From Cellulophaga sp. F20128 (GTDB lineage Bacteria; Bacteroidota; Bacteroidia; Flavobacteriales; Flavobacteriaceae): a stretch of 64,000 nt of DNA. The translations under genes were made by a program, and so were the position numbers. Position 1 is the stretch's first letter. Each line of letters begins with the position of its first letter. The notes beneath the pieces were generated by a model, which made no database searches, was not told where the DNA came from, and worked only from the letters and a program-made list of their open reading frames with translations. Below are positions 711 through 18,627 of the stretch, in pieces. The stretch spans positions 1 through 64,000 of the forward strand of contig NZ_JALKBA010000007.1 of assembly GCF_023015805.1 (NCBI RefSeq), given 5' to 3'.

Positions 711-1403
711 TTAATTAAAAGATTGTAGTTTTTGTATGCGCCACATTACATATTCAACAAGGCTATCACATTTAGAGTTTCCAAATTCAAAAATATCCTG
801 TGAATTTGCAGTATTGAGAAGAAATTTTTTCATCATATTCCTAGCCCTATGAAGTCTTACTTTCACATTACTATTGGTTAAATCAAGACCTTTTGAAATT
901 TCCGAAATTTCCATACCTTCGACTTCTTTAAGCATATACACAACCTTGTACTTATGAGGTAATGCATCAATAGCCTTTTCAATAAAAGCGGTGGATTCTT
1001 TATACATAATCTTACTTTCTGGGTTCATAGAGGATGTATCCGCAATTTGAAATACGCCTGTTTCTTGCATAAGGTCTGCAACTTGATGTCTTTTAGATTT
1101 CCTTTTCCGTTGAAGGGCTTCATTAATTCCAATTCTTACTAACCAGGTTGAAAACATAGCTTCATTTTTAAACTGATAAATTTTTTGAAAAGCTTTAACG
1201 TATGCGTCCTGCATTGTATCTTCAACATCTGCTTCAATATCTATATAACTACGAATAGTTCTATAAAGCAGTTCATTATACCGTCTCATTAAAATTTCGA
1301 AAAGCTCAGTTTGACCATTCAATATTTTTTCTACAACCATAAAATCCGGCAGTAATGTTGTCGAAACAATTTCTTTTTTCTTTTCTGAATTTCCATTACC
1401 CAT
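711..1403 (-). CDS. ECF-type RNA polymerase sigma factor (paralogue 1)
   Basis: Directs RNA polymerase to a dedicated promoter set. Region 2 lies at about residues 25-95, with DVEDTMQDAYVKAF and FSTWLVRIGINEA. Region 4 is an HTH at about 140-195, with ALPHKYKVVYMLKEVEGM and SNVKVRLHRARNMMKKF. A short C-terminal tail with FEFGNSKCD and a VM pair is shared with the second sigma gene at 8.5 kb. The frame also allows a GTG at 1409, but I prefer the ATG at 1403 because a promoter-like site ends at 1420, leaving a leader of about 10 bases. No anti-sigma gene adjoins it. It is divergent from the DUF4142-cupredoxin-cytochrome operon, and both sides carry the same promoter motif, so autoregulation plus control of that operon is likely (inference). 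Confidence 0.9.
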   Translation of the reverse strand: MGNGNSEKKKEIVSTTLLPDFMVVEKILNGQTELFEILMRRYNELLYRTIRSYIDIEADVEDTMQDAYVKAFQKIYQFKNEAMFSTWLVRIGINEALQRKRKSKRHQVADLMQETGVFQIADTSSMNPESKIMYKESTAFIEKAIDALPHKYKVVYMLKEVEGMEISEISKGLDLTNSNVKVRLHRARNMMKKFLLNTANSQDIFEFGNSKCDSLVEYVMWRIQKLQSFN

Positions 1404-1419: not shown

Positions 1420-1449
1420 TTAGATGCAATAATCCAAATTAGGTTACAA
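1420..1449 (-). promoter_or_regulatory. ECF-type promoter of sigma gene 1
   Basis: On the minus strand: TTGTAAC (complement of 1443-1449), 17 bases, then ATCTAA (complement of 1420-1425). Spacing and both boxes agree with four other sites in the island. Suggests the sigma gene is transcribed by its own or its paralogue's product. Confidence 0.65.
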
Positions 1450-1644
1450 GAATACTATAAGAAATTCAACCAATACCCCCAATTTGTACAACATCACTCT
1501 TTTTATTGCCAATTCGATCATTTTTAGTAAATCACGTATAAATAAGAATAAACTATGAAGTTTTCTGGCTTCGTATTGTGTAAGCGACAGCATTGTCAAA
1601 AAAGAAAAAAAAGAGCTCTTCAAATCCCTAAAAAAAATAGTTTT

Positions 1645-1674
1645 TTGTAACCACAATACATTTTCTGCATCCAA
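1645..1674 (+). promoter_or_regulatory. ECF-type promoter of the DUF4142-cupredoxin-cytochrome operon
   Basis: TTGTAAC at 1645-1651, 17 bases, ATCCAA at 1669-1674. The ATG at 1674 overlaps the downstream box and would lie before the transcript start, so this site argues for the ATG at 1701 as the real start of the DUF4142 gene. Confidence 0.65.
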
Positions 1675-1700
1675 TGGATAATAATTATAAAAATTTTATC

Positions 1701-2216
1701 ATGAAATCACTTATAAGTATGCTATTGTTTGAATTAATTTGTTTTTCATCCTACGGACAGCAAAAAGATGAATTGTCAGATCCAGAAGTAGCTTCTGTAG
1801 CTGTTGTCGCAAATCAAATTGATATTAGCTACGCAGAAATAGCGCTCAAAAAATCAAAAAATAACGAAATTCTTGAATTCGCAAATCGAATGATAACCGA
1901 CCATAATGTGGTAATTAAACAGGCAGTTGATCTGGTAACAAAACTTAGTGTTACCCCTAAAGATAATGCAATTAGTAAATCATTAGTGGAAGACGCTGAA
2001 AAAATTAATAAGAAGCTACTTAAAGCTAAAAAAAAGAAGTTTGATAATATATATATAGATAACGAAGTTGCATACCATAAGGCAGTTATTGCCGCGGTAA
2101 AAAACTTATTAATTCCAGAATCCGACAATATGGAACTTAAGGAATTATTAGAAGCCGTTTTACCTGCATTAGAAGCACATCTAGAGCATGCGGAAATGGT
2201 TCAAAAGCAATTATAA
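1701..2216 (+). CDS. Exported DUF4142 protein, ferritin-like helical bundle
   Basis: A DUF4142-family protein, about 171 residues from the chosen start. The N-terminus MKSLISMLLFELICFSSYG looks like a signal peptide, so the mature protein is periplasmic or outer-membrane associated. The rest is helical, with the family's typical DISYAEIALKKSKN, RMITDH, DNEVAYHKAVI and LEAHLEHAEM segments, the last rich in His and Glu. Function in the family is unproven; ties to oxidative or metal stress are common suggestions. The frame opens at 1674, but the promoter-like site overlaps that ATG, so 1701 is preferred. First gene of an operon with a cupredoxin (27 bases later) and a di-haem cytochrome. Confidence 0.85.
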   Translation: MKSLISMLLFELICFSSYGQQKDELSDPEVASVAVVANQIDISYAEIALKKSKNNEILEFANRMITDHNVVIKQAVDLVTKLSVTPKDNAISKSLVEDAEKINKKLLKAKKKKFDNIYIDNEVAYHKAVIAAVKNLLIPESDNMELKELLEAVLPALEAHLEHAEMVQKQL

Positions 2217-2242
2217 TCTTGTAATAATAAAACAAAACGATT

Positions 2243-2578
2243 ATGAACTTCCTTAAGAAAAAAAAGATACTACTGTTTGTTACTGTTGTTATAGGATTTG
2301 GAATATCCATGGTAGCTCAAAACGCTCCCAAAAAACATATTGTTGAAATTAAAAAAATGAAGTTTATTCCAGCCGAAATCAATGTAAAAAAAGGAGATAC
2401 GGTCGTTTGGATAAATAAAGAATTTTTTCCTCACGATGTAACCGACCAAAAGACTAAAGCTTGGGGTTCCGGACCATTCGGACAAAATGAAACTTGGAGC
2501 AAGGTTATTACCAAAAACGAAAATTATTTCTGCAACCTACATAAAGTTATGAAAGGAATTATAAAAATTAAGAAATAA
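2243..2578 (+). CDS. Exported cupredoxin (plastocyanin/azurin-like blue copper protein)
   Basis: A small type 1 copper electron carrier of 111 residues. A signal peptide covers about residues 1-26 (hydrophobic LLFVTVVIGFGISMVAQ). The cupredoxin fold follows with all four expected ligands: His64 in FFPHDVTD, Cys97 and His100 in CNLHKVM, and Met103. The segment MKFIPAEINVKKGDTVVW is typical of the family. It probably passes electrons to the di-haem cytochrome encoded 25 bases downstream. Being in one operon with DUF4142 and a peroxidase-like cytochrome suggests periplasmic redox defence. Confidence 0.88.
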   Translation: MNFLKKKKILLFVTVVIGFGISMVAQNAPKKHIVEIKKMKFIPAEINVKKGDTVVWINKEFFPHDVTDQKTKAWGSGPFGQNETWSKVITKNENYFCNLHKVMKGIIKIKK

Positions 2579-2603
2579 AATATTAACGCAAAAACCAAAA
2601 ATT

Positions 2604-3869
2604 ATGACAAACAAATTTATGACCCCAGTGCTCCTACTAATTATGGTATTTAGCCTTTTTAGTTGCAATAATGATGATTCTGGTTCTACACCTATAATTC
2701 CTCCAGGTGAGGGAAGTTTAAATTTACCCCCATTAGATCCTCAATTAGTTCAAGAAGGCCAAGATGTCTTTCGATATGACACTTTCGGAGATGAAACATT
2801 TTGGACAGATGTATTACAAATGAACCAAGTAATAGAAACAGCTATAAGTCCGAATACAGCTTTAAATGTGGGTTTAAAGGTGGATGCCGAAGCTTTACCA
2901 CCAGCTGTTGTTACTGCTATTCAAAATGGGGAGGTTGATTTAGATGACCCTCAAACCACGTTGGTCTTATTACAACTTAATGCTGTTCTTGGGGTTCAAG
3001 GACAAGTCAGTAAAAACCCTGATGGTAGCTTGTCGTTGGACAGAATGGGCGTTACTTGCGCGTTGTGCCACTCAACTGTTGACGACTCCTTTGCCCCTGG
3101 CATTGGTAGTCGTTTGGATGGATGGGCAAATCGGGATTTAGACCCTGGTTTAATTATTTCATTATCTCCAGCTCTAGACCAACCAACAAAGGATGTTTAT
3201 GCTTCTTGGGGGCCTGGAATTTACGATCCAAGATTTAACAATGATGGTTTGAATAACCCAGTTGTCATCCCACCTGCGTATGGCTTATATGGCCTTCCTA
3301 AAGCTATTTTTACTGGAGATGGAGATGTAGAACGCGAGCCCGCAGGACCTGTGGCTTATTGGAATAGATATGTAGCGGTTACTCAAATGCACGGACACGG
3401 ATATTTCGCCGATGCACGCCTCAATTTAGAAGTTGACCATAGAGAAAATGATGATTTAGTAACAGATAAACTGCCTGCTTTGCAAGCGTATCAATTTTCT
3501 ATTTCAGCTCCCACAGCTCCCGTCAGTTCTTTTGATGCGAATGCCGCTGCCAGAGGAAAAGCGCTTTTTTCTGGAAAAGGACAGTGTTCAAGTTGTCATT
3601 CCGGGCCATTATTTACTGATGTTATCGATGGTGGGAAATTACATCCTCAAAATGCATCTGTGGCAGTAGATAAAGATTATGTTAATCGCTCAGCTACAAA
3701 GAAATGGAGAGTTACACCACTTAAAGGAATTTGGCAACACCCTCCTTATTTTCATGATGGCTCTGCGGCTACCTTGGCTGATGTAGTCGCAAGATATAAC
3801 CAGCAAATGAATCTTAATTTAAATACGGCAGAAATGGCTGATCTTACTGAATATCTGAAATCTATATAG
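2604..3869 (+). CDS. Di-haem cytochrome c lipoprotein of the CCP/MauG type
   Basis: A 421-residue protein with a lipoprotein signal (FSLFSCNND, lipid Cys at about 21) and two haem-binding motifs, CALCH at about 152-156 and CSSCH at about 328-332. The C-terminal half carries the family pattern WRVTPLKGIWQHPPYFHDGS and the helix ending in LTEYLKS. The family includes cytochrome c peroxidases that reduce hydrogen peroxide and MauG-like oxidases; which reaction applies is not shown. The middle of the protein, between the two haem sites, is longer than in classical CcpA. Last gene of the DUF4142 operon, followed by a strong hairpin. The CcsBA gene downstream would mature its haems. Confidence 0.85.
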   Translation: MTNKFMTPVLLLIMVFSLFSCNNDDSGSTPIIPPGEGSLNLPPLDPQLVQEGQDVFRYDTFGDETFWTDVLQMNQVIETAISPNTALNVGLKVDAEALPPAVVTAIQNGEVDLDDPQTTLVLLQLNAVLGVQGQVSKNPDGSLSLDRMGVTCALCHSTVDDSFAPGIGSRLDGWANRDLDPGLIISLSPALDQPTKDVYASWGPGIYDPRFNNDGLNNPVVIPPAYGLYGLPKAIFTGDGDVEREPAGPVAYWNRYVAVTQMHGHGYFADARLNLEVDHRENDDLVTDKLPALQAYQFSISAPTAPVSSFDANAAARGKALFSGKGQCSSCHSGPLFTDVIDGGKLHPQNASVAVDKDYVNRSATKKWRVTPLKGIWQHPPYFHDGSAATLADVVARYNQQMNLNLNTAEMADLTEYLKSI

Positions 3870-3926
3870 TTATTGGTTGGTAGTGTAAAAAGAAGAATAA
3901 AGACTTATTTAATATTCTGCTTTTAT

Positions 3927-3987
3927 AAGCATCTTTTTGGAGCGATACATTCTTTAAGAATCAATCCCTAAAGAGGTGCTTTTTTTT
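3927..3987 (+). terminator. Long-stem hairpin with T-tract after the cytochrome gene
   Basis: Bases 3927-3938 (AAGCATCTTTTT) pair along all 12 positions with 3970-3981 (AAAGAGGTGCTT), counting two G-T pairs, and a run of seven T (3981-3987) follows. The loop of about 31 bases holds a second perfect inverted repeat, ATTCTT-T-AAGAAT. Most simply an intrinsic terminator with a branched top. Confidence 0.55.
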
Positions 3988-4072
3988 ATGTGCAAGTACT
4001 AAAGTTTGATAAAATGTGTCCTATTTAAAAAGATCTTGGTATTAGAACAATATATAATTGATTATTAACAAA

Positions 4073-7000
4073 ATGAAAGGCCTAAAAGAAATCCTATTCT
4101 CTACCCGTACCATGACGGTTCTTTTGCTTTTATATGGTATTTCCATGGCAGTTGCAACTTTTGTAGAAAACGACTATGATACACCTACAGCAAAAACGCT
4201 TATTTATAACTCGATTTGGTTTGAAATTTTGATGCTTTGGTTGATTGTCTTGTTCGCTGCAAATATTAAGACTTATAGACTTACAAGACAAGAAAAATGG
4301 CCGCTATTGGTATTTCATTTAGCTTTTATTTTTATGTTTATTGGAGGCGCTGTAACGCGTTACATAAGTTTTGAAGGACAAATGCCGATTAAAGAAGGAC
4401 AGACTACCAATGAAATTATCAGTGATCTCACTTATTTCAAATTGATTGTAAGCGATGGAAACAAAACATTAAGCTACGACAAAAACCCCTATATGATGTC
4501 TTATTTTAATGCAAAAGACACTAAATGGCCTTTCAAAAGAACCTTTAAACAAAAATATCGATTTGGAAATAAAGTTATTGCCTTAAAAACCATTGACTAT
4601 ATTCCGTTAGCCAAGGACTCTGTTCAAAAAACCGAATCGGGAAAGAAGATGCTCAATATTGTATCTTTAGGACATGGAGGTCGAGAAAATACTTATATCC
4701 CTGAAGGCGAAACCAAGAATATAGAAGGAACACTATTTAGTTTTAACAACCCGGTCCAAGGCACAGTTCAACTCAAGGAAACGGATAGTATCATTACGAT
4801 TGTACTTCCCAATGATGGACACTACATGTCTATGGAAGGACAGCAAAAAGGTATCGTAACTGATTCTACCTTATTGGCGCAACGTTCTGGCGAACTTAAA
4901 GCGAATGCATCTGCCATTTTGAATCACAGGACACTCTACACCGTTAACACAACCAATTTCATCATCCCTGAAAACGCCTTCAATGGAAAAATTGTTTACT
5001 ACAATGGGAACAAAAACGACCCGATGGATAAAAATCTTTTGGAAGTGATTCAGTTGGAATTAACCTCGGGAAATGAAATAGATACACTGTTGATAAAAGG
5101 GGGGAAAGGTGTTACTGAATTAGATAAAACTGTAAGGATTAATGGGCTGAATGTTTCCTTGGGATTTGGTTCCAAAATACTTTATACTGATTTTTATTTG
5201 CGATGTGATGATTTTTTACTGGAACGTTATCCAGGGTCAAATAACCCATCATCTTATGAAAGCAAGATAACCGTTATTGATGGAGAAACAGAGAATCAGC
5301 ATCATATTTATATGAATAATGTGATGGATTATCGTGGCTACCGATTCTTTCAGGCCAGTTATTTCCCTGATGAAACCGGAACCATCCTTTCTGTAAATGC
5401 CGACAAATGGGGAACAAATATTACCTATTTTGGATATTTTTTATTGTTTACAGGAATGTTTTTCACGCTCTTCTGGAAAGGGACTCGTTTTTGGAATCTC
5501 AATAATTCTTTAAAGAAAATGCACGCGAAAAGTCGTGTATTGATTCCTTTTTTAATGCTTTTAGGCTTAGGATTCGGAGTGAATCTCAGTTTCGCCCAAA
5601 ATAGTGTCGTTCAAACTACAGAGACAACAAGTTTAAAACGACAGAAACTTGGACCAAATGCTCAATTTGCAAAGCCTAGCGAGTTTGGACTCAAAAGGAT
5701 AATTGATCCCGTTCATGCCGAAAAATTTGGACATCTTTTAGTTCAGGATTTTCAAGGCAGGATTAAACCTATGAACACACATAGTCTTGAACTACTTAGG
5801 AAGATTTATAAGAAAGATTCATATCACAAAGGAACACAGACTATATCTTCAGAACAATGGTTTATTTCCATGCAGATCGATCCTAGTTTTTGGGCCAATG
5901 AACCATTGATAAAAGTGGGTAAAAACGGAGGTGATAAATTAATAAAGGAAACAGATGCCAATGAAGATGGTTATACGTCATACACCAATCTTGTGGACAT
6001 GAATACAGGCGTTTTTAAGCTGGAAGAACAGAATAACTTATCTTTCAGCAAACGGAAAGCCGACCAGTCTAAATATGACAAAGCCGTAATAGAGGTGACC
6101 GAACGCTTTAATGTTTTCAGCAATATCGCTTTTGGGTATTATACGCAAACCGTTCCAATAAAAAACGATTCAGCACAAACATGGACAAGTTGGATATACA
6201 GTACTGAAGAAAATTCTGTAATGATTGACACGACAGCTTATGCACTGTTAACCAATTATTTTAATGGTGCCAAAGAAGGGTTGAAAACCGGAAATTGGAA
6301 CAGTGCTGATAACGCTATTGAAGACATCCGTGAATTTCAGCAGATTTGGGGTGAAAAAGTTATGCCACCAAAAACAAAGGTACAACTGGAGATTCTCTAT
6401 AATCATCTAAACATTTTCTTCTGGTTGATGATAATTTACAGTTTTTTGGGTGTGTTTATGATCTTGCTTGGTTTTGCGGAGGTATTTTCTCTTGGATCAA
6501 GATATCATAACATGATTCGTATTTTGACCAAAACCTTATTGGGTATCATGGTTGCAGCACTAGTCGTACAAGTGATGGCTTTAGCATTACGTTGGTATCT
6601 TTCGGGACATGCCCCTTGGAGTAATGGATATGAAGCTATAATATTTATTTCTGGAATAGGTGTACTTTCAGGTTTGCTTCTTTACAGAAATCGGAATGCT
6701 TTTATTCCTGCAGCTGGAGCGTTGGTCGCCATGATCATGATGGGTTTTGCCCATGGAGGTTCCATGCTCGACCCACAGATTACGCCTTTGGAACCCGTAT
6801 TAAAATCCTATTGGCTCATGATTCATGTTGGCATCATAACTTCCAGTTACGGATTCTTCGGCTTATCTACAGTATTGAGTGCAATTTCATTAATACTGTT
6901 CAGTGCAAAACCTACTATAAAAATAAAGCGTTCCATTAAGGAATTGACCATAGTCAATGAAATGGCTTTAACCGTGGGCATCTTTGCCCTTGCCGTAGGC

Positions 7001-7348
7001 ACCTTTCTAGGAGGAATGTGGGCTAATGAGAGTTGGGGAAGATATTGGAGCTGGGATCCCAAAGAAACTTGGGCATTTATATCGGTTATATTATATGCTG
7101 TGGTGCTCCACTTGAGATTAGTACCGAAACTGAAGGGTAAACTTACTTTTAATATCGCAAGCCTATGGGCAATATGGCCGATTATATTTACCTATTTTGG
7201 AGTAAACTACTATCTGTCAGGATTGCATTCCTACGCTGCTGGTGACCCAATACCAATTCCTGCCTGGATTTATATTACTGCAGCAGGAATGCTTATTTTG
7301 ACTTTGGTGGCTTACTTTAGAAACAAATTGAGCAAGAAACAGATTTAA
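4073..7348 (+). CDS. ccsBA: Fused cytochrome c maturation protein CcsBA (ResB-ResC type)
   Basis: System II haem exporter and cytochrome c synthetase. Three N-terminal membrane segments (about 12-100) open a ResB/CcsB domain with a large periplasmic loop, closed by a segment near 450-470. A second hydrophobic stretch (LIPFLMLLGLGFGVNL, near 490-510) precedes another periplasmic region, and the C-terminal CcsA domain (from about 780) has multiple membrane segments. The haem-handling WWD signature WGRYWSWDPKETWAF is at about 988-1002, with candidate haem-ligand His residues in SYWLMIHVG and SGLHSYA. The frame opens at a TTG (4058), but ATG 4073 gives the standard start. It would attach haem to the di-haem cytochrome upstream. 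Its stop overlaps the convergent folE stop by four bases. Confidence 0.92.
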   Translation: MKGLKEILFSTRTMTVLLLLYGISMAVATFVENDYDTPTAKTLIYNSIWFEILMLWLIVLFAANIKTYRLTRQEKWPLLVFHLAFIFMFIGGAVTRYISFEGQMPIKEGQTTNEIISDLTYFKLIVSDGNKTLSYDKNPYMMSYFNAKDTKWPFKRTFKQKYRFGNKVIALKTIDYIPLAKDSVQKTESGKKMLNIVSLGHGGRENTYIPEGETKNIEGTLFSFNNPVQGTVQLKETDSIITIVLPNDGHYMSMEGQQKGIVTDSTLLAQRSGELKANASAILNHRTLYTVNTTNFIIPENAFNGKIVYYNGNKNDPMDKNLLEVIQLELTSGNEIDTLLIKGGKGVTELDKTVRINGLNVSLGFGSKILYTDFYLRCDDFLLERYPGSNNPSSYESKITVIDGETENQHHIYMNNVMDYRGYRFFQASYFPDETGTILSVNADKWGTNITYFGYFLLFTGMFFTLFWKGTRFWNLNNSLKKMHAKSRVLIPFLMLLGLGFGVNLSFAQNSVVQTTETTSLKRQKLGPNAQFAKPSEFGLKRIIDPVHAEKFGHLLVQDFQGRIKPMNTHSLELLRKIYKKDSYHKGTQTISSEQWFISMQIDPSFWANEPLIKVGKNGGDKLIKETDANEDGYTSYTNLVDMNTGVFKLEEQNNLSFSKRKADQSKYDKAVIEVTERFNVFSNIAFGYYTQTVPIKNDSAQTWTSWIYSTEENSVMIDTTAYALLTNYFNGAKEGLKTGNWNSADNAIEDIREFQQIWGEKVMPPKTKVQLEILYNHLNIFFWLMIIYSFLGVFMILLGFAEVFSLGSRYHNMIRILTKTLLGIMVAALVVQVMALALRWYLSGHAPWSNGYEAIIFISGIGVLSGLLLYRNRNAFIPAAGALVAMIMMGFAHGGSMLDPQITPLEPVLKSYWLMIHVGIITSSYGFFGLSTVLSAISLILFSAKPTIKIKRSIKELTIVNEMALTVGIFALAVGTFLGGMWANESWGRYWSWDPKETWAFISVILYAVVLHLRLVPKLKGKLTFNIASLWAIWPIIFTYFGVNYYLSGLHSYAAGDPIPIPAWIYITAAGMLILTLVAYFRNKLSKKQI

Positions 7349-8010
7349 TTAGAACCAAGCAAAACCGATATAAGATTAGAATCGTTTTTTATCTGTCCCT
7401 TAAAAACAGACGTTACGGTTGAACTTCCCAAATCCTCAACACCTCTACAAGAAATGCAACTATGATTTGCTTTTAAAACAACACCTACATCCTCTGTGTT
7501 AAGTATAAAAGATAGTTCTTGCAATATCTGCATTGTCAATCGCTCTTGCACTTGTGGTCTTCGTGCAAAATAGTCAACAATTCTATGGATTTTAGATAAT
7601 CCAATGATATAATCTTTTGGATTGTAAACAACATTGGCTATGCCTTGAATTGGTACAAAATGATGTTCACAAAACGACGTAAACGGGATATTGAGCTCAA
7701 TTAAAGGCGTGTGATAACCAAACTCATTTTCAAATACAGTTACTTTAGGCTTGTTTTTTGGATTTAAACCCTTAAATACCTCGTTCACGTACATTTTTGC
7801 CACTCGCTTTGGTGTGCCCTTTATACTATCGTTGGTTAGGTCAAATCCCAATATTTCTATAATATCCTTAAACTTTTCAGTAATCAGTTCAATCTTCAAT
7901 TCTTCATCTCTATCAAAAGCATCATCACGTAGCGGATTTTTGGCCACTACGTGATGATTGAAATTTTTTAAACTATCTTTTACTAAAAGGGTGTTTCCGT
8001 TTACCTCCAT
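7345..8010 (-). CDS. folE: GTP cyclohydrolase I
   Basis: Converts GTP to 7,8-dihydroneopterin triphosphate, the entry to folate or tetrahydropterin synthesis. Key family parts are present: FTSFCEHHFVPIQG (zinc Cys and catalytic His), GLSKIHRIVDYFARRPQVQERLT, and HSCISCRGVED with the second zinc Cys. The frame runs upstream to 8073 but would overlap doxX; the ATG at 8010 gives a 221-residue enzyme, the usual size, only a few bases after the doxX stop. doxX and folE are therefore probably one transcript from the ECF-type promoter at 8434-8463. A folE on a mobile element is probably an additional copy for a pterin cofactor (inference). Confidence 0.93.
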   Translation of the reverse strand: MEVNGNTLLVKDSLKNFNHHVVAKNPLRDDAFDRDEELKIELITEKFKDIIEILGFDLTNDSIKGTPKRVAKMYVNEVFKGLNPKNKPKVTVFENEFGYHTPLIELNIPFTSFCEHHFVPIQGIANVVYNPKDYIIGLSKIHRIVDYFARRPQVQERLTMQILQELSFILNTEDVGVVLKANHSCISCRGVEDLGSSTVTSVFKGQIKNDSNLISVLLGSN

Positions 8011-8014
8011 AAAA

Positions 8015-8398
8015 TTAATTCTTGGCTTTATTGAAATTGTTTTCAGATAGTTTTGCCAATGAAAATGCACCAATTGCCATTACTATATCTCTCACCGCAA
8101 CATCTACATAAGTCCAACTGAAAATTAAGGTCAAGGCTATTGCCACTAGCCATCCAGAAACCACATAAGCACCTAATTTCGTTTTTGTTAAAACCAGTAC
8201 TCCAGCAATAATTTCGATAACACCAACTATCATCATAAATGTAGTAGGTTCAAATGGAAGCATGGATGCAAATCCTTCGGAAATGTATTGAGACCAATCG
8301 GTCAAAATGTTTGTAAATTTGTCTAGTCCTGCAACAATTGGAACTAAGCCAAAAGTGAATTTTAGCAAGGTTTTTACTAACTGTACGTTTGAGTTCAT
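8015..8398 (-). CDS. DoxX-like inner-membrane protein
   Basis: 127 residues with four likely membrane helices, at about 8-26 (VKTLLKFTFGLVPIVAGLDKF), 52-70, 73-95 and 100-118. The first helix and the GLDKF turn are typical of the DoxX/MauE-like superfamily, small proteins tied to quinone or sulfur redox and oxidative stress. No catalytic residue can be assigned. The gene is divergent from the second sigma gene, shares its control region and runs on into folE. Regulation by the island sigma factor is suggested by the promoter site at 8434-8463. Confidence 0.8.
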   Translation of the reverse strand: MNSNVQLVKTLLKFTFGLVPIVAGLDKFTNILTDWSQYISEGFASMLPFEPTTFMMIVGVIEIIAGVLVLTKTKLGAYVVSGWLVAIALTLIFSWTYVDVAVRDIVMAIGAFSLAKLSENNFNKAKN

Positions 8399-8433
8399 AA
8401 TTCTACTATTTAGTTATTAATTTATTACACCCT

Positions 8434-8463
8434 TTTGATGGTAAATTTTAAAAAACGATACAA
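8434..8463 (-). promoter_or_regulatory. ECF-type promoter of doxX-folE
   Basis: On the minus strand: TTGTATC (complement of 8457-8463), 17 bases, ATCAAA (complement of 8434-8439). One base in the upstream box differs from the island consensus. It is back to back with the promoter of sigma gene 2, and the two upstream boxes together form a palindrome. Confidence 0.55.
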
Positions 8464-8472
8464 AATTTTGTA
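8459..8472. promoter_or_regulatory. Perfect 14-base palindrome between doxX and sigma gene 2
   Basis: TACAAAATTTTGTA, an exact inverted repeat. It is formed where the upstream boxes of the two divergent ECF-type promoters meet, so it may be a by-product of that layout rather than a separate operator. Confidence 0.6.
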
Positions 8473-8497
8473 ACTTTTTTTGCCTTTTTCAATCTAA
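8468..8497 (+). promoter_or_regulatory. ECF-type promoter of sigma gene 2
   Basis: TTGTAAC at 8468-8474, 17 bases, ATCTAA at 8492-8497. The predicted transcript would begin only about 6-12 bases before the ATG, so the leader is very short. Confidence 0.65.
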
Positions 8498-8509
8498 ACT
8501 AAAAGACAC

Positions 8510-9187
8510 ATGCACATGGAAGCTATTAATATTAATAATTATAACAATAAAAAAATAAAAGAAGCGCACGTGATAAGGCGTATTCTTGGAGGTGAGAAAG
8601 AACTCTACGAAATTTTAGTGAGACGGAATAACCAAAAATTGTTTCGGGTTATTAGAAGTTATTTAAAAGACACGGCAGAAATAGAGGATGTCATGCAAAA
8701 TACTTATTTAAAAGCCTATGCCAAGCTGTATCAATTCAAATTGGAATCTTCATTTTCTACTTGGTTAATTCGCATTGCAATAAACGAATCGCTTGCTAGA
8801 TTGAAGGAAAAAGGAAAACTATACCATTTAAACCAACAATCGGATATTTCAAAAAGCAATACCATTTTAGAAATTCCAGACCATAGGCAGTTAAACCCAC
8901 AAGACACGATGATACAGATTGAAGCAAAGCAATTGTTGGAAAATGCTATTGACAGTTTAAGTATGAAATACAAGACTGTTTATATTATGAAACAGGTGGA
9001 AGAAATGAGTCTCAAAGAGGTAGCTGCTGCTTTAGATATATCTGTTGCCAATGTAAAAATACGTTTACATCGCTCAAAAGAAATGCTGAAAGAAAAACTT
9101 TACGAAGTCACAAATGATAAAAATGTCTTTGAATTTGGGTTTAGCAAATGCGATAGGATTACCGAGAATGTGATGAATATGGTATAA
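8510..9187 (+). CDS. ECF-type RNA polymerase sigma factor (paralogue 2)
   Basis: 225 residues, related along its whole length to the sigma factor at 0.7-1.4 kb. Shared blocks include YNELLYRTIRSY versus NQKLFRVIRSY, FSTWLVRIGINEA versus FSTWLIRIAINES, and VKVRLHRARNMMK versus VKIRLHRSKEMLK, and both have the same C-terminal FEFG..SKCD tail. Region 2 is at about 20-90 and region 4 at about 135-190. ATG 8510 or ATG 8516 could be the start; the promoter position slightly favours 8516. No anti-sigma gene is adjacent. It is likely to autoregulate and to drive the divergent doxX-folE pair (inference from shared promoter boxes). Confidence 0.9.
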   Translation: MHMEAININNYNNKKIKEAHVIRRILGGEKELYEILVRRNNQKLFRVIRSYLKDTAEIEDVMQNTYLKAYAKLYQFKLESSFSTWLIRIAINESLARLKEKGKLYHLNQQSDISKSNTILEIPDHRQLNPQDTMIQIEAKQLLENAIDSLSMKYKTVYIMKQVEEMSLKEVAAALDISVANVKIRLHRSKEMLKEKLYEVTNDKNVFEFGFSKCDRITENVMNMV

Positions 9188-9405
9188 TAGCTAACAATAA
9201 AAAGATTCAACAAAAACTATTATGCCTATAAAAACAGAAAAGCTCAATTAATTACATATTTGAATACACAAGTAGTTAGTTTCTTTATACAAACCGTATA
9301 TGGAATAGGGCTTAATAACATGTATCAATCTGAATTACAGCAGATTAGATGTTTGAAGTTTTTCATCCAACGAAAAGTTAAAATTTACAAATTAAATCAA
9401 AAACA

Positions 9406-10077
9406 ATGAAAATTAAACCAGTAAAGATCATATCTATCGGCTTCAACACACATGATGTCTTGCATATTGTAACCGCCAAACCGAAAGGAATTGAATTCGT
9501 CCCAGGGCAAGCTACCGAAATTTTTATTGATAAAGAAGGCTGGTATAACCAAGGTAGAGCGTTTACTTTTACTTGTTTACCAACAGATGATTATTTAGAA
9601 TTCTTGATAAAAATCTATCCTTCTCACAAAGGAGTTACCAACAGACTACTTGATTTAAAAGCAGGAGACAAGCTTATTATAAATGATGTTTTTGGTGCAA
9701 TCACCTATAATGGAGAAGGAACCTTTATTGCCGGTGGTACTGGAATAACGCCATTTATATCAATCTTTAGGGAATTAAAAGCACATAATAAATTGGGCAA
9801 CAACAGACTTATTTATGCGAACAAAACGAAAAAAGACATCATACTTGAAAATGAATTTAAGGAAATGTTAGGTGATAATTTTATTAATATACTTTCTGAA
9901 GAAAAAATAGAAGGCTATTCTTACGGAAGGGTTTCCAAAAATTTCATAAAGAATAATTCGAACGTTTCAAATTCTATTTTTTATGTATGTGGCCCACCAC
10001 ATATGATGTTGGCTGTGGAAAAATATTTATTACAATTAGGGGTGAGTAAGAAAAATATTGTGACCGAAGAATTTTAA
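9406..10077 (+). CDS. Flavodoxin-reductase-like FAD/NAD(P)H oxidoreductase 1
   Basis: 223 residues in two domains. The N-terminal FAD-binding barrel has FVPGQATEIFID and GRAFTFTC (the RxxT/S-type flavin motif). The C-terminal NAD(P)-binding domain has the Gly-rich FIAGGTGITPFISIF and ends with IFYVCGPPHMM. No ferredoxin domain is attached, so it is a single-function reductase, transferring electrons between NAD(P)H and an unknown carrier. It lies 218 bases after sigma gene 2 and may be read from that promoter; I found no matching ECF-type site directly upstream. A paralogue is at 12.2-12.9 kb in the same element. Confidence 0.85.
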   Translation: MKIKPVKIISIGFNTHDVLHIVTAKPKGIEFVPGQATEIFIDKEGWYNQGRAFTFTCLPTDDYLEFLIKIYPSHKGVTNRLLDLKAGDKLIINDVFGAITYNGEGTFIAGGTGITPFISIFRELKAHNKLGNNRLIYANKTKKDIILENEFKEMLGDNFINILSEEKIEGYSYGRVSKNFIKNNSNVSNSIFYVCGPPHMMLAVEKYLLQLGVSKKNIVTEEF

Positions 10078-10309
10078 TAAATATTTATATAGAAGTCAAA
10101 TAATTTTATGGCACAATAAGATAACAAGAAAGTTAAGACCATTAAATATAGCGCGCACCTAATTGATAAATTTTTTGCTATGTTTCAAAAACATCTATCT
10201 GATATGGTTAATAGATGTTAGTAATTCTCTAAGTTCTGGTAAATTTCCGCCTTTCAATATGATTATTTAAATTATTTAACTTAAATTTTAACTATAAATT
10301 AAGTTCCAA

Positions 10310-10325
10310 GTACTAGCACTAGTAC
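10310..10325. promoter_or_regulatory. Perfect inverted repeat, operator-like
   Basis: GTACTAG-CA-CTAGTAC: seven-base arms with a two-base centre. No T-tract follows, so it is not an obvious terminator. It sits upstream of the mini-frame at 10369. It could be a regulator binding site or a relic of one. Confidence 0.35.
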
Positions 10326-10368
10326 AAATTGATTAGACCTTTTTGTTATCAATCCTAATGGAGGCAAT

Positions 10369-10431
10369 ATGAAAAAATTAAGGAATCATAGAAACACTGA
10401 TTGGAGCGATTTTTATTCAACACAACAATAA
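10369..10431 (+). CDS. Possible 20-residue mini-protein
   Basis: ATG at 10369 is preceded at normal distance by GGAGG, which is unusually strong for this AT-rich, Shine-Dalgarno-poor genome. The product would be MKKLRNHRNTDWSDFYSTQQ, basic at the start, with no family I know. It could equally be the head of a decayed gene. Low confidence. Confidence 0.2.
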   Translation: MKKLRNHRNTDWSDFYSTQQ

Positions 10432-10734
10432 TAAAAATATTGCTAATAATAACTTTGTAGTAAAATAATACTCCTCTTTTAATATGTACTTTATTACATC
10501 TTGACAGAAAATATAGAGCGCGTTACTCACAGCAAGCCTATGGACCCTTTTTCATATTTCTATAAGGTATTATTCTTAACAGCAAAACAATAGCAACGAC
10601 TGAATCACCCACTAAACTAGTTTATTATGAAATGAGAAATTTAAATTTTCGTTTTATCAAAATCTATTGCCTAACATTCCGAAATTCCAATGATCCAATT
10701 TGAATCGTTATAATTTTATATTATAGATTGGTAA

Positions 10735-12171
10735 CTATAAATCTTCTAATTTGCTTTTTAATAAATAAACAAGTAAATCCGTTTCCTTTTTATGTGTTCT
10801 AAAGGACAAAATAGCTGCACGTAATGTGAATTGGCTGTCAAGAATTGTTGAAGAAATAAAGACACGGCCATCTTCGAGAATATGGTTTAACAGAGCCGTG
10901 TTCAGGGCCTCGTTATCACGATCTTTAAAGTTAAATCTGAAAGCTATGATTGTCAGATCCGGTTCGCAAACAATCGTAAACCCCAATTGCCGTAATTCTT
11001 TGCATAAATAAATTGTAAGTCTCAACTTTTCTTCAAGGTAATCGGAGAAAATGTCTACCCCATATAGTTTTAAAGGTAACCACATACGCAATCCTCTAAA
11101 GTGCTTACTCATTTCAGGAGACAAATCCGATGGAGAATAATGCATTTCCTTTTCAGCATCTTGCATATAATTTGCAGAGTACTTATTGGTATTAAGTAAA
11201 TGATTTATATCCTTTACCAGTAGCATTCCGGAACCATAGGGTAAAAACATACCTTTATGAGGATCAAGAATTACTGAATCAGCCTGTTTCAAACCATATA
11301 ATTTATTTTTACCGTAAGTGGTCATAGCAAAAAAGCCTCCATAGGCTGCATCTACATGAAACCAAATAGAATATTCTCTACATATTGCACTTAGTTTTTC
11401 CAGAGGATCAATGGCCCCAACATCAGTAGAACCGGCATTGGCAATTGCCAAAAATGGTTTTAAACCATCATTAACATCTTTTTTTATTTGAGATTTGAGT
11501 TCGAAAGTAGAAATTCTAAAATCACTATCTAAAGGTATTTGACGTAAAACACACTCTTCCAGCCCAACGATATTAATTGCTTTGTAAATACTGTGATGTG
11601 TTTGTGTTGAGCAGTAGATTACACTTTTTAATAGATTCTTTGAGGTAATGTTTTTAGACTTTTTGGCTGTTGATAATGCAATTAGATTGGCAATACTACC
11701 TCCCGATGTTAAGTTTCCACCAAACCCTTTTGAATATCCTATTAAGTTGCCTACCCATTTTATTAATGCATCTTCCATTCTTACAGCACCTGGTGAGGCA
11801 TAGAATATACCAGCGTATCTATTTGTAACTGCGGCGAGGTAATCACCTAGAGCAGAGCTATATATACCACCTCCCGGGATATAACCAAAATTACCCCCTG
11901 AAGCAGGATTTAAACCAGTATCAACTACACGCTCCTTTATTAAACCAAGTATATTCTCCAGTTTTAAAGTTTCTTTTCCAATTTCAAATAAATTATCCTG
12001 TTTTGTTTTATTTTGACCGCTATTATTAAAAGCTTTTGTTTCGCTAATTGTGTTTAAAAATTCATTGGCGAAATTCAAAATTACATTATCAATTTCTTTC
12101 CGTTTCTCCTCGTTTTCCTCCAAGGGAAAATTATCGTTAGAACAGGATTGATGCTCTTTTTTAAAATCCAT
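10735..12171 (-). CDS. Pyridoxal-phosphate-dependent amino-acid decarboxylase (group II)
   Basis: 478 residues, the usual length for the aromatic-amino-acid/glutamate decarboxylase superfamily. Visible marks are NFGYIPGGGIYSSALGDYL near the N-terminus, the NLTSGGSIANLIAL cofactor-phosphate region, HVDAAYGGFFAM with the Asp that pairs with the pyridine nitrogen, and SVILDPHKGMFLPYG with the PLP lysine at about 304. The substrate cannot be decided from sequence; aromatic amino acids are possible. It follows a flavodoxin-reductase-like gene by 52 bases in the same direction, so both probably come from the ECF-type promoter at 12938-12967. Confidence 0.88.
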   Translation of the reverse strand: MDFKKEHQSCSNDNFPLEENEEKRKEIDNVILNFANEFLNTISETKAFNNSGQNKTKQDNLFEIGKETLKLENILGLIKERVVDTGLNPASGGNFGYIPGGGIYSSALGDYLAAVTNRYAGIFYASPGAVRMEDALIKWVGNLIGYSKGFGGNLTSGGSIANLIALSTAKKSKNITSKNLLKSVIYCSTQTHHSIYKAINIVGLEECVLRQIPLDSDFRISTFELKSQIKKDVNDGLKPFLAIANAGSTDVGAIDPLEKLSAICREYSIWFHVDAAYGGFFAMTTYGKNKLYGLKQADSVILDPHKGMFLPYGSGMLLVKDINHLLNTNKYSANYMQDAEKEMHYSPSDLSPEMSKHFRGLRMWLPLKLYGVDIFSDYLEEKLRLTIYLCKELRQLGFTIVCEPDLTIIAFRFNFKDRDNEALNTALLNHILEDGRVFISSTILDSQFTLRAAILSFRTHKKETDLLVYLLKSKLEDL

Positions 12172-12223
12172 AATTTATTATTATGAAATAGAATTTACAT
12201 TTTCAATAAATGATAATTGACTC

Positions 12224-12913
12224 CTATAATTTATACCCAGTTTGGATATAACTTCTTTCCGCTCCTAATTGTATTAAACAATTTCTAATATCCTCTTCAA
12301 AAGCTTTTGGTCCACATATATAAAAATATTGATTTATATTTTTTATTTGTTCTTTCATAAAAATATAATCGACTCTTCCAGAAATCATATTCTGTGCTTT
12401 GGATATGCTCAAAATATTAATATAATTTTCACCAAAAAGAGGCTTCAAATCAGATTTAAAGAGGATGTCATTTTTCGTTTTGTTCGCATAAATCAATTTA
12501 TTGTCCTTTATTTCTGTACCCGAGTTAACTAGTGATTTCAAGATGGGTACAAATGGTGTTATTCCAGTACCACCCGCAATAAAAACACCTCTACCCTTAT
12601 ATTCAAAGGTACTCCACGGTTCAGTTATTTGTAAAATTGCACCACTATCTAATGATGCTAACCCATTGGTCAAACTTCCTTTGTTCTGATTTATCTTGAT
12701 ATACAGTTCTAAAAAAGGACTGTCGTTGGTATTTGTAATTGTAAATGGTGCTACATCAAGTTCATATCCAGGTTGATCTATGCTTAAATCAATAGCCTGT
12801 CCGGGTGCAAATGTATATCCATAAGGTTTCTGTATTTGAAAACGAATTACATTGTGGTTAATTTGTTGTTTGTGTAAGATCTTGGATCTGTAAGGAAAAA
12901 TAAAACCGTTCAT
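12224..12913 (-). CDS. Flavodoxin-reductase-like FAD/NAD(P)H oxidoreductase 2
   Basis: 229 residues, a paralogue of the reductase at 9.4 kb. The FAD domain has YTFAPGQAIDLSID and APFTITNT; the nucleotide domain has VFIAGGTGITPFVPIL and ends with YFYICGPKAF. No iron-sulfur or ferredoxin domain is attached. First gene of a two-gene unit with the PLP decarboxylase, behind an ECF-type promoter that leaves a leader of about 18 bases. The electron partner is unknown; the cupredoxin and cytochrome of the same island are exported, so a cytosolic partner outside the window is more likely. Confidence 0.85.
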   Translation of the reverse strand: MNGFIFPYRSKILHKQQINHNVIRFQIQKPYGYTFAPGQAIDLSIDQPGYELDVAPFTITNTNDSPFLELYIKINQNKGSLTNGLASLDSGAILQITEPWSTFEYKGRGVFIAGGTGITPFVPILKSLVNSGTEIKDNKLIYANKTKNDILFKSDLKPLFGENYINILSISKAQNMISGRVDYIFMKEQIKNINQYFYICGPKAFEEDIRNCLIQLGAERSYIQTGYKL

Positions 12914-12937
12914 AGAATAATCTTTTTTGGTTATCTA

Positions 12938-12967
12938 TTTGATTAAAAAGTTCAAGTTTGGTTACAA
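12938..12967 (-). promoter_or_regulatory. ECF-type promoter of reductase 2-decarboxylase
   Basis: On the minus strand: TTGTAAC (complement of 12961-12967), 17 bases, ATCAAA (complement of 12938-12943). Same spacing as the other four island sites. Confidence 0.6.
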
Positions 12968-13942: not shown

Positions 13943-15148
13943 TTAAAAATTAATCACATTATCTAATGCATCGTCGGCATCTTTGTGCATAAAATTTGCT
14001 TGATAGTTTACGGTCGTCGTAATTGAGGAATGACGATAAAGTTTCTGAAGCATTTGAATTGGAATTTTCTCACCTGAAATATTTCCAAAGCTATGTCTTG
14101 CAATATGCATACTCATATTTTTTTTGATCCCAACTTGTATTGAAGCTCTTTTCAATAATCGATTAAGGTTTCTTGTAACGGATTGAATTCTTACAGAAAC
14201 TTCTTCATAATCCCTTAAATTGGTGCTTCCAAGATATGGGAATATAAGATTATTGGGAGTTTCTAATTTTCTATAAATGTCGAGTAATACCTTTGCCTTA
14301 TTTGGAACTTTCAAAGAAACAAGTTTACTGTTTTTGTCCATTCGATAGAGTAATCGGTTATCAACAATATCCGACCATTTTAACTTTAAGACATCAGCAA
14401 CTCGAATACCTGCAAAATAAAAGCTAATGAGCCAAACATTAACTGCATTCTGTTGCGCTTCAGAAAGATTGTTAACCACTTCTAGCTTTTGAATTTCTTC
14501 TATATTCAATCCAATTTTTTGAGATTCAGGAATTCTAATTGTCATTTTGCCTTTACCAAAAGGATATAGCCCTCTGTCCGTAATAGATTCTGCAATAGCA
14601 AGATTATAAATTGTTCTGATTAAAATAAGGTAGTTAACGACCGTTCTAGGGGAAAGCTTTTTGCTATGTATTAAATAGGTTTCAAATTTCTTTAGTAACA
14701 CAACATTTAACTTGTTAAAAGGAAGCACATCCTTACCTAAAAATTCCTTAAACTTTTTTAAGCGGCCAAACTCAGTATCATATTGATGATGTTTATTTCT
14801 ATTTTTAAGATTTTTAAGGTGCATATTGGCAACAACAAAGAAATCAAAGCCCTTGTTTTCTACTATCTTGTTTCTAATTTCTGCAACTGATTCGTACTCT
14901 GGTTTCATTTCAGATTTTAAAACCTTATCATTAGCTTCTGCAACTTTACTGACAATAAAATTATTGAGCACCTTTGAGTTTGGATGGGACTTCCGAACGT
15001 TACGATTTTTTTCGTCCCAAAATTTTTCATCAATATATTGCCCCGTATTTAGGAAAGAACTTTTACGGTCTTTAGTTATCCGTATAGCAATAGGGTACCG
15101 TCCAGCTTTATTCTTCTTTTTTCTCAAAACTGCTCTTACCGTTGCCAT
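13943..15148 (-). CDS. Tyrosine recombinase / integrase of the mobile element
   Basis: 401 residues, the Bacteroides phage/transposon-type layout. An N-terminal arm-binding domain (about 1-90, RYPIAIRITKDRKSSFLNTG) and a SAM-like core-binding domain (about 105-200) precede the catalytic domain. Catalytic residues are in place: Arg in FAGIRVADVLKLKW (about 248), HIARHS with the His-x-x-Arg pair (about 349), His in LYRHSSITTT, and the nucleophile Tyr in VNYQANF (about 380). The broken initiator tRNA starts about 160 bases upstream, which fits integration into the tRNA 3' half. It probably integrated the element now covering 1-15.35 kb. Confidence 0.93.
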   Translation of the reverse strand: MATVRAVLRKKKNKAGRYPIAIRITKDRKSSFLNTGQYIDEKFWDEKNRNVRKSHPNSKVLNNFIVSKVAEANDKVLKSEMKPEYESVAEIRNKIVENKGFDFFVVANMHLKNLKNRNKHHQYDTEFGRLKKFKEFLGKDVLPFNKLNVVLLKKFETYLIHSKKLSPRTVVNYLILIRTIYNLAIAESITDRGLYPFGKGKMTIRIPESQKIGLNIEEIQKLEVVNNLSEAQQNAVNVWLISFYFAGIRVADVLKLKWSDIVDNRLLYRMDKNSKLVSLKVPNKAKVLLDIYRKLETPNNLIFPYLGSTNLRDYEEVSVRIQSVTRNLNRLLKRASIQVGIKKNMSMHIARHSFGNISGEKIPIQMLQKLYRHSSITTTVNYQANFMHKDADDALDNVINF

Positions 15149-15309: not shown

Positions 15310-15351
15310 CTCATAACCCGAAGGTCACTGGTTCGAGTCCAGTTCCCGCTA
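15310..15351 (+). tRNA. 3' half of an initiator tRNA-Met gene (att site remnant)
   Basis: The sequence reads C-TCATAA anticodon loop (anticodon CAT), the CCCGA 3' anticodon stem typical of initiator tRNAs, a variable region, a complete T arm (ACTGG-TTCGAGT-CCAGT) and TCCCGCTA as the 3' acceptor strand. No D arm or 5' acceptor lies upstream, so this is not a working tRNA. Recombination at the anticodon loop by the neighbouring tyrosine recombinase would leave exactly such a half; the intact tRNA should lie at the other, unseen end of the element. Confidence 0.75.
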
Positions 15352-15358
15352 CAAAGTA

Positions 15359-15385: not shown

Positions 15386-15435
15386 GTTTGGTAAAAAAAG
15401 TGAAGCTTGCTTTAGCTTTTTTTACCAAACAAAAA

Positions 15436-16243
15436 ACACAAGGTCGCGTAGCGCCCTTGGTTTACTTTGTAAAGCTCCCCTTTAGGCCCTTTCCGAAATG
15501 CAATGAAGGAAAGAATCCAGGCCTTCTAACACATAAAATCATCATTACAAAACTAAAGCTACGCGCCCTTGGTTTACTTTGTAAAGCTCCCCTTTAGGCC
15601 CTTTCCGTAGTGTAACGAAGGAAAGAATCCAGGCCTTCTAACACATAAAATGATCATTGCAAAAAATGCTTTAGCTTTTGATGCCATAAAAAATACCACA
15701 ACGCTTTAGCGTTGTAGGCTTTGCCTTGTAAAGCTCCCCTTTAGGCCCTTTCCGTAGTGTAACGAAGGAAAGAATCCAGCTAAACACTAATACTCCTAGG
15801 CTCACAATTCTTTACACACCCCTTAGTCCCCTCTTTTTAGAGGGGAGAACCTAAAAACAAAATTACGATTACAAAACTAAAACTACGCGCCCTTGGTTTC
15901 CTTTGTACAGCTCCCTTTAGGCCCTTTCCGTAGTGTAACGAAGGAAAGAATCCAGGCCTTCTAACACATAAAATCATCATTACAAAACTAAAGCTACGCG
16001 CCCTTGGTTTACTTTGTAAGCTCCCTTTAAGCCCTTTCCGTAGTGAAACGAAGGAAAGAATCCAGCTGAACACTAGATCTCCTAAGCCAACATTTCTTTA
16101 CACACCCCTTAGTCCCCTCTTTCTAGAGGGGATAACCTAAGAACAAAAAGTACGATTACAAAACCATAGCGTAGCGCCCTTGGTTTCCTTTGTAAGCTCC
16201 CCCAAGGCCCTTTCCGTAGTGAAACGAAGGAAAGAATCCAATA
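15436..16243. repeat. Array of six hairpin-bearing repeats (flavobacterial dispersed repeat)
   Basis: A unit of about 110 bases recurs from about 15451, 15563, 15721 (partial), 15887, 15998 and 16174. Each holds GCGCCCTTGGTTT, an AAGCTCCC block, CCCTTTCCGTAGTG and AACGAAGGAAAGAATCC, whose CTTTCC/GGAAAG arms pair. Copies 3 and 5 carry an insert with a near-palindromic hairpin, TCCCCTCT-TTTT-AGAGGGGA (15827-15846) and its TTCT-loop twin near 16109. It is GC-richer than its surroundings and codes for nothing convincing. Unit size and lack of unique spacers rule out CRISPR. Confidence 0.8.
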
Positions 16244-16332
16244 CTTAATTTAAAAAATAAAATTGTAATTACCGAATAACTTCAGAGTGAAAGCGCTTTA
16301 CTGAACAGCATCTACGATTAAATTTCAGGGAA

Positions 16333-18624: not shown

Positions 18625-18627
18625 CTT

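Follow-up and report, generated by a model that had tools for sequence, protein, structure and literature searches.

What reads the five look-alike promoter sites that stand within the first 13 kb of contig NZ_JALKBA010000007.1 of the flavobacterium Cellulophaga sp. F20128? The stretch analysed here (positions 1 to 64,000 of that contig, 64 kb, forward strand; hereafter the window) carries, on what is probably a mobile DNA element, two genes for extracytoplasmic function (ECF) sigma factors, and a preliminary description of this DNA had proposed an ECF sigma regulon with a single promoter architecture, present before both sigma genes. A pattern search recovered all five of the proposed sites, with the same coordinates, strands and exact 17-base spacing:

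1420 to 1449, minus strand: candidate ECF promoter of sigma gene 1, TTGTAAC-N17-ATCTAA
1645 to 1674, plus strand: candidate ECF promoter of the DUF4142-cupredoxin-cytochrome genes, TTGTAAC-N17-ATCCAA; relatives also have a site before DUF4142
8434 to 8463, minus strand: candidate ECF promoter of doxX-folE, TTGTATC-N17-ATCAAA
8468 to 8497, plus strand: candidate ECF promoter of sigma gene 2; it and the doxX promoter stand back to back, AAATTT separating the two TGTAWC hexamers
12938 to 12967, minus strand: candidate ECF promoter of a reductase-decarboxylase pair, TTGTAAC-N17-ATCAAA; the same reductase family has the site in relatives

The -10 box reads ATC(T/C/A)AA across the window, with GCATCCAA exact at 1645-1674 and GCATCTAA at 1420-1449. 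Its end lies 12 to 35 bases before the start codon, so that the sites are indeed close upstream of their genes, at distances somewhat different from the few to 30 bases first given. These five sites are most likely the promoters of an ECF sigma regulon, and very probably -35/-10 promoters read by the element's own sigma factors, which would belong to a Bacteroidota branch related to ECF29.

Matches of this kind could be chance or housekeeping promoters, given that the upstream regions are AT-rich. The counts argue strongly against this, as the preliminary description had held on the strength of the constant spacing. TTGTAWC-N17-ATCHAA matches the window five times, whereas shuffled sequences gave a mean of 0.03 and a maximum of one, and none of 100 shuffles reached five. 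Across the whole genome (4,170,921 bases in 114 contigs) there are seven exact matches, against three for the pattern read backwards as a control, and five of the seven fall within the first 13 kb of the window's contig, or 0.3% of the genome (Poisson P ~6e-13 for at least five sites in 13 kb at a background of three per genome). Hit density is thus unequal between the element and the rest of the genome. The two remaining matches are not promoter-like, one lying within an open frame and the other having no called gene downstream on its strand, and a looser pattern, with 22 matches against 10 reversed, added no further site in the element. The shuffles and reversed patterns lead us to reject a chance origin and, together with the conservation in relatives described below, make a chance or housekeeping origin extremely improbable.

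The two sigma factors resemble each other in domains, score and tail:

711 to 1403, minus strand: sigma factor 1, with sigma2 and sigma4 domains (PF04542/PF08281), 214.2 bits against NF008888, tail FEFGNSKCD
8510 to 9187, plus strand: sigma factor 2, with Pfam sigma domains, 214.8 bits against NF008888, tail FEFGFSKCD

Because its relatives begin MEA, sigma gene 2 probably starts with the ATG at 8516 rather than at 8510. Both proteins exceed the NF008888 cut-off of 204, which RpoE8 of S. meliloti passes with 323.1 bits and an unrelated ECF sigma misses at 98.8. The other genes of the putative regulon are these:

1701 to 2216, plus strand: DUF4142 protein (PF13628)
2243 to 2578, plus strand: plastocyanin/amicyanin-like cupredoxin (PF00127; TIGR02657 under its cut-off)
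2604 to 3869, plus strand: MauG/di-heme cytochrome c peroxidase-like protein, under the curated cut-offs of the peroxidase models
4073 to 7348, plus strand: ResB/CcsB fused cytochrome c assembly protein (PF01578, PF05140)
7345 to 8010, minus strand: folE, GTP cyclohydrolase I, behind doxX (PF01227; NF006824 249.1 bits)
8015 to 8398, minus strand: DoxX membrane protein (PF07681)
9406 to 10077, plus strand: FAD/NAD reductase-like protein behind sigma gene 2, with no site of its own (PF00175)
10735 to 12171, minus strand: decarboxylase dependent on pyridoxal phosphate (PF00282)
12224 to 12913, minus strand: FAD/NAD reductase-like paralogue, encoded by the gene next to the fifth site, placed in the same cluster as 9406-10077 and identified by clustering alone

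Their common theme would be periplasmic electron transfer and redox chemistry.

The same arrangement is conserved well beyond Cellulophaga. Its back-to-back spacing, the partnership with doxX and the kinship with ECF29 are not mentioned in the preliminary description. We scanned the best 80 of 281 loci from named genomes, Bacteroidota by their titles, 78 of which had upstream sequence. A site precedes the sigma gene in 72 of the 78 and a divergent pair of sites is present in 69, with a gap between the two TGTAWC hexamers of 6 bp in 66 pairs, 5 bp in two and 7 bp in one; when one row per genus or bin was drawn from these pairs, the gap was 6 in 38 of 40. The spacer is 17 in 67/69 sigma-side and 68/69 partner-side sites. 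Among the six sigma-side misses, two read TGTACC (L133, L143), one has a -10 judged by eye to be changed (L183) and one has no site (L177), the others being L180 and L181. From 113 sources, in overlapping sets that count some places twice, we collected 231 sites and not one reversed match; the genes behind them are sigma (96), doxX (90), DUF4142 (11), reductase (8), cytochrome (7) and others (8), with none called at 11. Behind the site the same families of genes recur in an order that varies between loci, also where they are unlinked to the sigma gene (L096-L099), and the doxX cluster lies near sigma in 71 of the 80 loci, while any other family does so in at most 12. Because TTT precedes TGTAAC also at sites before other genes, the extended -35 element is best written TTTTGTAAC and the 6-bp gap understood as two such elements abutting.

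At the centre of the divergent pair stands GWTACAAAATTTTGTAAC, which comes close to a perfect palindrome and keeps both its length and its letters (with one row per genus, 22 of 40 have AAATTT). Such an inverted repeat could instead be the operator of a dimeric transcription factor, with the -10-like box incidental. Yet where the gene behind the site is neither sigma nor doxX, 26 of 33 distinct sites lack an inverted GWTACA within 16 bp upstream and still have the -10 at 17 bp, no transcription-factor gene is a constant neighbour by the counts just given, and distant plasmid loci alter the -35 while keeping spacing and -10. With the inverted half absent from so many single sites, a dimeric factor reading the palindrome is judged very unlikely.

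Genomes with and without the sigma also differ in their matches. Relatives of sigma 2 (E<=1e-30) occur in 26 of 299 family genomes, our own included. Twenty-five sigma-bearing genomes hold 107 matches against 33 reversed, and a sigma gene is at most 20 kb away from 59 of the 107, which are spread over 21 genomes, whereas 25 sigma-less genomes, taken in list order, hold 44 against 39 reversed. The cytochrome gene is found in 11 of the 299 genomes, all of them sigma-bearing (hypergeometric ~2e-13, relatedness uncorrected), and in three genomes (G019, G077, G102) the cytochrome gene or DUF4142 lies far from sigma with the box still present. One further genome, G148, has TGTAAT instead of TGTAWC at both its sigma and doxX boxes, the gap still being 6, and its cytochrome gene, ~49 kb from sigma, has TGTAAT-N17-ATCCAA ~75 bases upstream. 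If one factor reads all of these promoters, a joint change of their -35 boxes at unlinked places is the expected outcome.

Whether both sigma factors act on all sites is a separate matter. A single sigma might read them all, the other being a passenger or reading something else. The two sigmas stand apart in our tree, where sigma 1 belongs to a clade of seven rows (100/100) and eight proteobacterial sigmas share one branch (99/95); 13 of the 37 inner branches of this tree are weak, its outgroup rows are very long with one of them among the Bacteroidota rows, and its root is uncertain. One relative with two other sigmas (G027) also retains a sigma-2-type back-to-back promoter with a reductase gene downstream (L090, contig C1, 15669-15704), and no sigma-2 gene or remnant was found at that promoter. 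Against a single reader, the same box is present in genomes with only one sigma type, and we regard such a division of roles as rather unlikely.

How the sigmas would be controlled is suggested by their C-terminal tail, which holds a cysteine in all 31 aligned Bacteroidota sigmas and, by eye, in all 15 from the plasmid collection. The scan of window proteins brought up no recognisable anti-sigma gene: the open reading frame at 180-494, beyond sigma 1, is a DUF6730 gene on the other strand, the gene directly behind sigma 2 is the reductase, and no co-transcribed anti-sigma of the NrsF type was found. There is no constant gene behind sigma in 31 loci, 20 of which lack any same-strand gene within 150 bp.

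The lack of a constant gene behind sigma also favours assigning the regulatory role to DoxX, a member of a small membrane-protein family, as an anti-sigma-like regulator, such that an activator and its inhibitor would be produced jointly from the back-to-back promoter. The pairing is near-obligate: good copies of the doxX subfamily (E 1e-39 or better) occur in 24 of the 299 genomes, and every one of these is sigma-bearing. Decay seems to be joint as well, since two sigma-less genomes each hold a partial doxX beside a broken sigma remnant (L236 = G072, L237 = G059), and because the broken pieces of both lie together this suggests that the pair is lost as a unit. However, doxX is missing from 2 of the 26 sigma genomes (G231, G251); the window's DoxX has no cysteine and, as the sequence reads, little cytoplasmic mass; none is listed for the seven annotated proteobacterial loci, where the gene table is incomplete; and in Caulobacter, according to PMC3511200, DoxX is a target of sigma-F and NrsF is the anti-sigma. 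A regulatory DoxX is therefore possible, though we hold it doubtful. At one relative's locus (L068 5663-8456, G073), the genes downstream of doxX on its strand encode a COX1-type oxidase and a FixO/cytochrome c protein, and doxX operons may thus carry respiratory genes.

The closest known counterpart of these sigmas is RpoE8 of S. meliloti (locus L200), which its authors class as ECF29. According to PMC6180224, its promoter is GGGAAC / GCATCCAA, an amicyanin gene lies nearby, no anti-sigma is reported and the regulation of this ECF29 sigma "remains a mystery". The window system and RpoE8 share a score above the NF008888 cut-off, a -10 of the form (G)CATC(C/T)AA, a 17-bp spacer, a site before the sigma's own gene, a cupredoxin neighbour, a Cys-bearing C-terminal tail and the lack of a visible anti-sigma gene. 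They differ in the -35, which is TTTTGTAAC in the window and in relatives and GGGAAC for RpoE8, and in that the window system has a doxX partner, a fixed 6-bp back-to-back pair, a larger gene set on an element, and sigmas on a separate branch of the tree, whose root is uncertain. Because the -35 differs, the window sigmas are, judged by sequence, ECF29-like and not ECF29. Two other classes are less close. ECF16 (Caulobacter sigma-F/NrsF and S. meliloti RpoE7), as described in PMC3511200 and PMC6180224, resembles the window system in a -35 with GTAAC, in doxX among the sigma-F targets and in a metal-stress regulon, and differs in its -10, CGAA at 16 bp as opposed to ATCHAA at 17 bp; neither its two-Cys NrsF anti-sigma nor its DUF692/DUF2282 targets were found here. 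CorE (ECF238), as described in PMC8999054, offers the precedent of a sensor built into the C-terminus of the sigma itself, with no anti-sigma, but has a Cys-rich domain where the window sigmas have one invariant cysteine and no such domain.

More distant cousins are plasmid-borne, at 33-37% identity among the 20 relatives listed of 528 records; in a phage collection, 45 records included none at 60% identity or above. We fetched 14 plasmid records, seven of them proteobacterial with gene tables, one from a planctomycete and six without annotation. Of the seven proteobacterial loci with annotation, all but L186 have a gene for DUF4142, plastocyanin, GTP cyclohydrolase I, a reductase or cytochrome c close by, and the planctomycete record has none of these. 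The TGTAWC-type site is absent from the 14 loci at spacing 17 and occurs once at 16; GGGAAC is found instead, with GGGAAC-N-ATCNA giving 0, 0, 0, 19, 5, 2, 0 and 1 matches at spacings 14-21 against 1, 0, 0, 0, 0, 1, 0 and 0 for the reversed control, and nine loci have a GGGAAC-type site directly before sigma (one as CGGAAC). Two methanotroph plasmids (L190, L191) have back-to-back GGGAAC-type promoters with ~10-11 bp between the hexamers, and what diverges from sigma there is DUF4142 or a pair of genes encoding a truncated hemoglobin and a 2Fe-2S protein. A third Bacteroidota sigma lineage (L073:16468-17139, L095:517-1167), 32-33% identical to sigma 2, has TTGTAACCTTTT upstream with a -10 that reads, by eye, ACTC(C/T)AA. 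Text searches of open-licence PubMed Central articles recognised no description of a Bacteroidota sigma-doxX regulon and gave no lead to the signal.

Several observations weigh against promoters read by the element's own ECF29-related sigmas. In the sigma-bearing genomes, 48 of the 107 matches are away from sigma, mostly at background level, and 4 of the 25 (G080, G142, G148, G251) have no exact match near sigma. The co-occurrence of adjacent genes is partly joint inheritance among related genomes. A GGAAC-type site immediately upstream of sigma is lacking in five of the 14 plasmid loci (L186, L187, L189, L194, L196), and the third Bacteroidota lineage (L073:16468) scores 180.5 on NF008888, under the cut-off. 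The tail has no known ligand, and its predicted helix (212-224) lies in a block with a per-residue confidence (pLDDT) of 74-89 within a model whose overall score (predicted template modelling, pTM) is only 0.49. Finally, PMC6180224 reports no target for RpoE8 on 126-fold overexpression, so that the ECF29 class may need a signal or act weakly.

We propose that a redox-type signal would activate the sigma post-translationally through the conserved C-terminal tail and its invariant cysteine. Active sigma would bind TTTTGTAAC/ATCHAA, each sigma raising its own synthesis by positive self-activation, and the shared site would also fire doxX-folE, the DUF4142-cupredoxin-cytochrome genes and the reductase-decarboxylase pair. 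Two abutting -35 elements would lock the divergent promoters at 6 bp so that sigma and partner are fired from one place, and DoxX, as the constant first output, might remove or report the stress.

The placement of this regulon on mobile DNA, asserted in the preliminary description, has local support from two features:

13943 to 15148, minus strand: tyrosine recombinase with Arm-binding, SAM-like and integrase domains (PF17293, PF13102, PF00589)
15312 to 15353, plus strand: 3' half of tRNA-Met(CAT) that has no 5' half to go with it, the probable right end of the element

Mobile elements integrated at tRNA genes have a tyrosine recombinase beside a 3' tRNA half. The window's recombinase likewise adjoins such a half, an exact 42 bp of tRNA-Met where no tRNA gene was found; unlike fully mapped elements, this one has its left end beyond the contig. 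Two more copies of the 42-bp half, with one mismatch each, lie on contig C18 of the same genome (G000), one in a whole tRNA-Met and the other at a place that ARAGORN calls as tRNA-Met with a mismatched 5' half, which we read as a further fragment; just before this second fragment is DNA 71% identical to the window recombinase. In a same-genus genome without the sigma (G203), a single copy of the 3' half sits inside an apparently whole tRNA-Met and aligns with the window at 87% over 77 columns, made up of the 42-bp half and ~33 bases of flank, and in another genome (G153) a related integrase adjoins the same reductase-decarboxylase pair with its site. The system is thus probably on a mobile element here. 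The further claim that the regulon is confined to that element holds in this genome; in the relatives examined the usual unit is the sigma-doxX pair, and far targets carry the box (G019, G077, G102, G148). A purely element-private regulon is accordingly rejected, as relatives carry the regulon in trans and apart from recognised elements.

Three features stand apart from the regulon itself. Contig C18 may hold a further ~49 kb element between the whole tRNA-Met and the second 3' half (48933-98001), which might stand in tandem with the element of the window. Immediately to the right of where the latter ends, at 15400-16250 of the window, repeated non-coding blocks (CTTTAGGCCCTTTCCG...GGAAAGAATCCAG) are visible by eye, and at 16333-20874 a DUF2357/PD-(D/E)XK nuclease gene lies beside an AAA ATPase gene, a pair that we presume could be a McrBC-like defence system.

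The system is a variant of a known but unexplained sigma class. Its promoter design, with the back-to-back pair, appears from comparison of these loci to recur across Bacteroidota and to have cousins in Proteobacteria, the -35 differing between phyla while the -10, the spacing and some of the associated genes remain similar. Tentatively, we may be looking at a Bacteroidota-wide unit that joins an ECF29-like sigma to DoxX, its obligate partner, through a locked bidirectional promoter, in which DoxX would be the missing membrane regulator or sensor, and which mobile elements would have taken up, doubling the sigma and adding a redox gene set. For a large ECF29-related branch, comparative genomics now supplies a promoter together with a list of putative targets, a partner gene that is almost always present and a tail with an invariant cysteine, and the question of ECF29 regulation becomes testable in a culturable flavobacterium, where a probable mobile element brings its own sigma factors together with the promoters that those sigmas most likely read.

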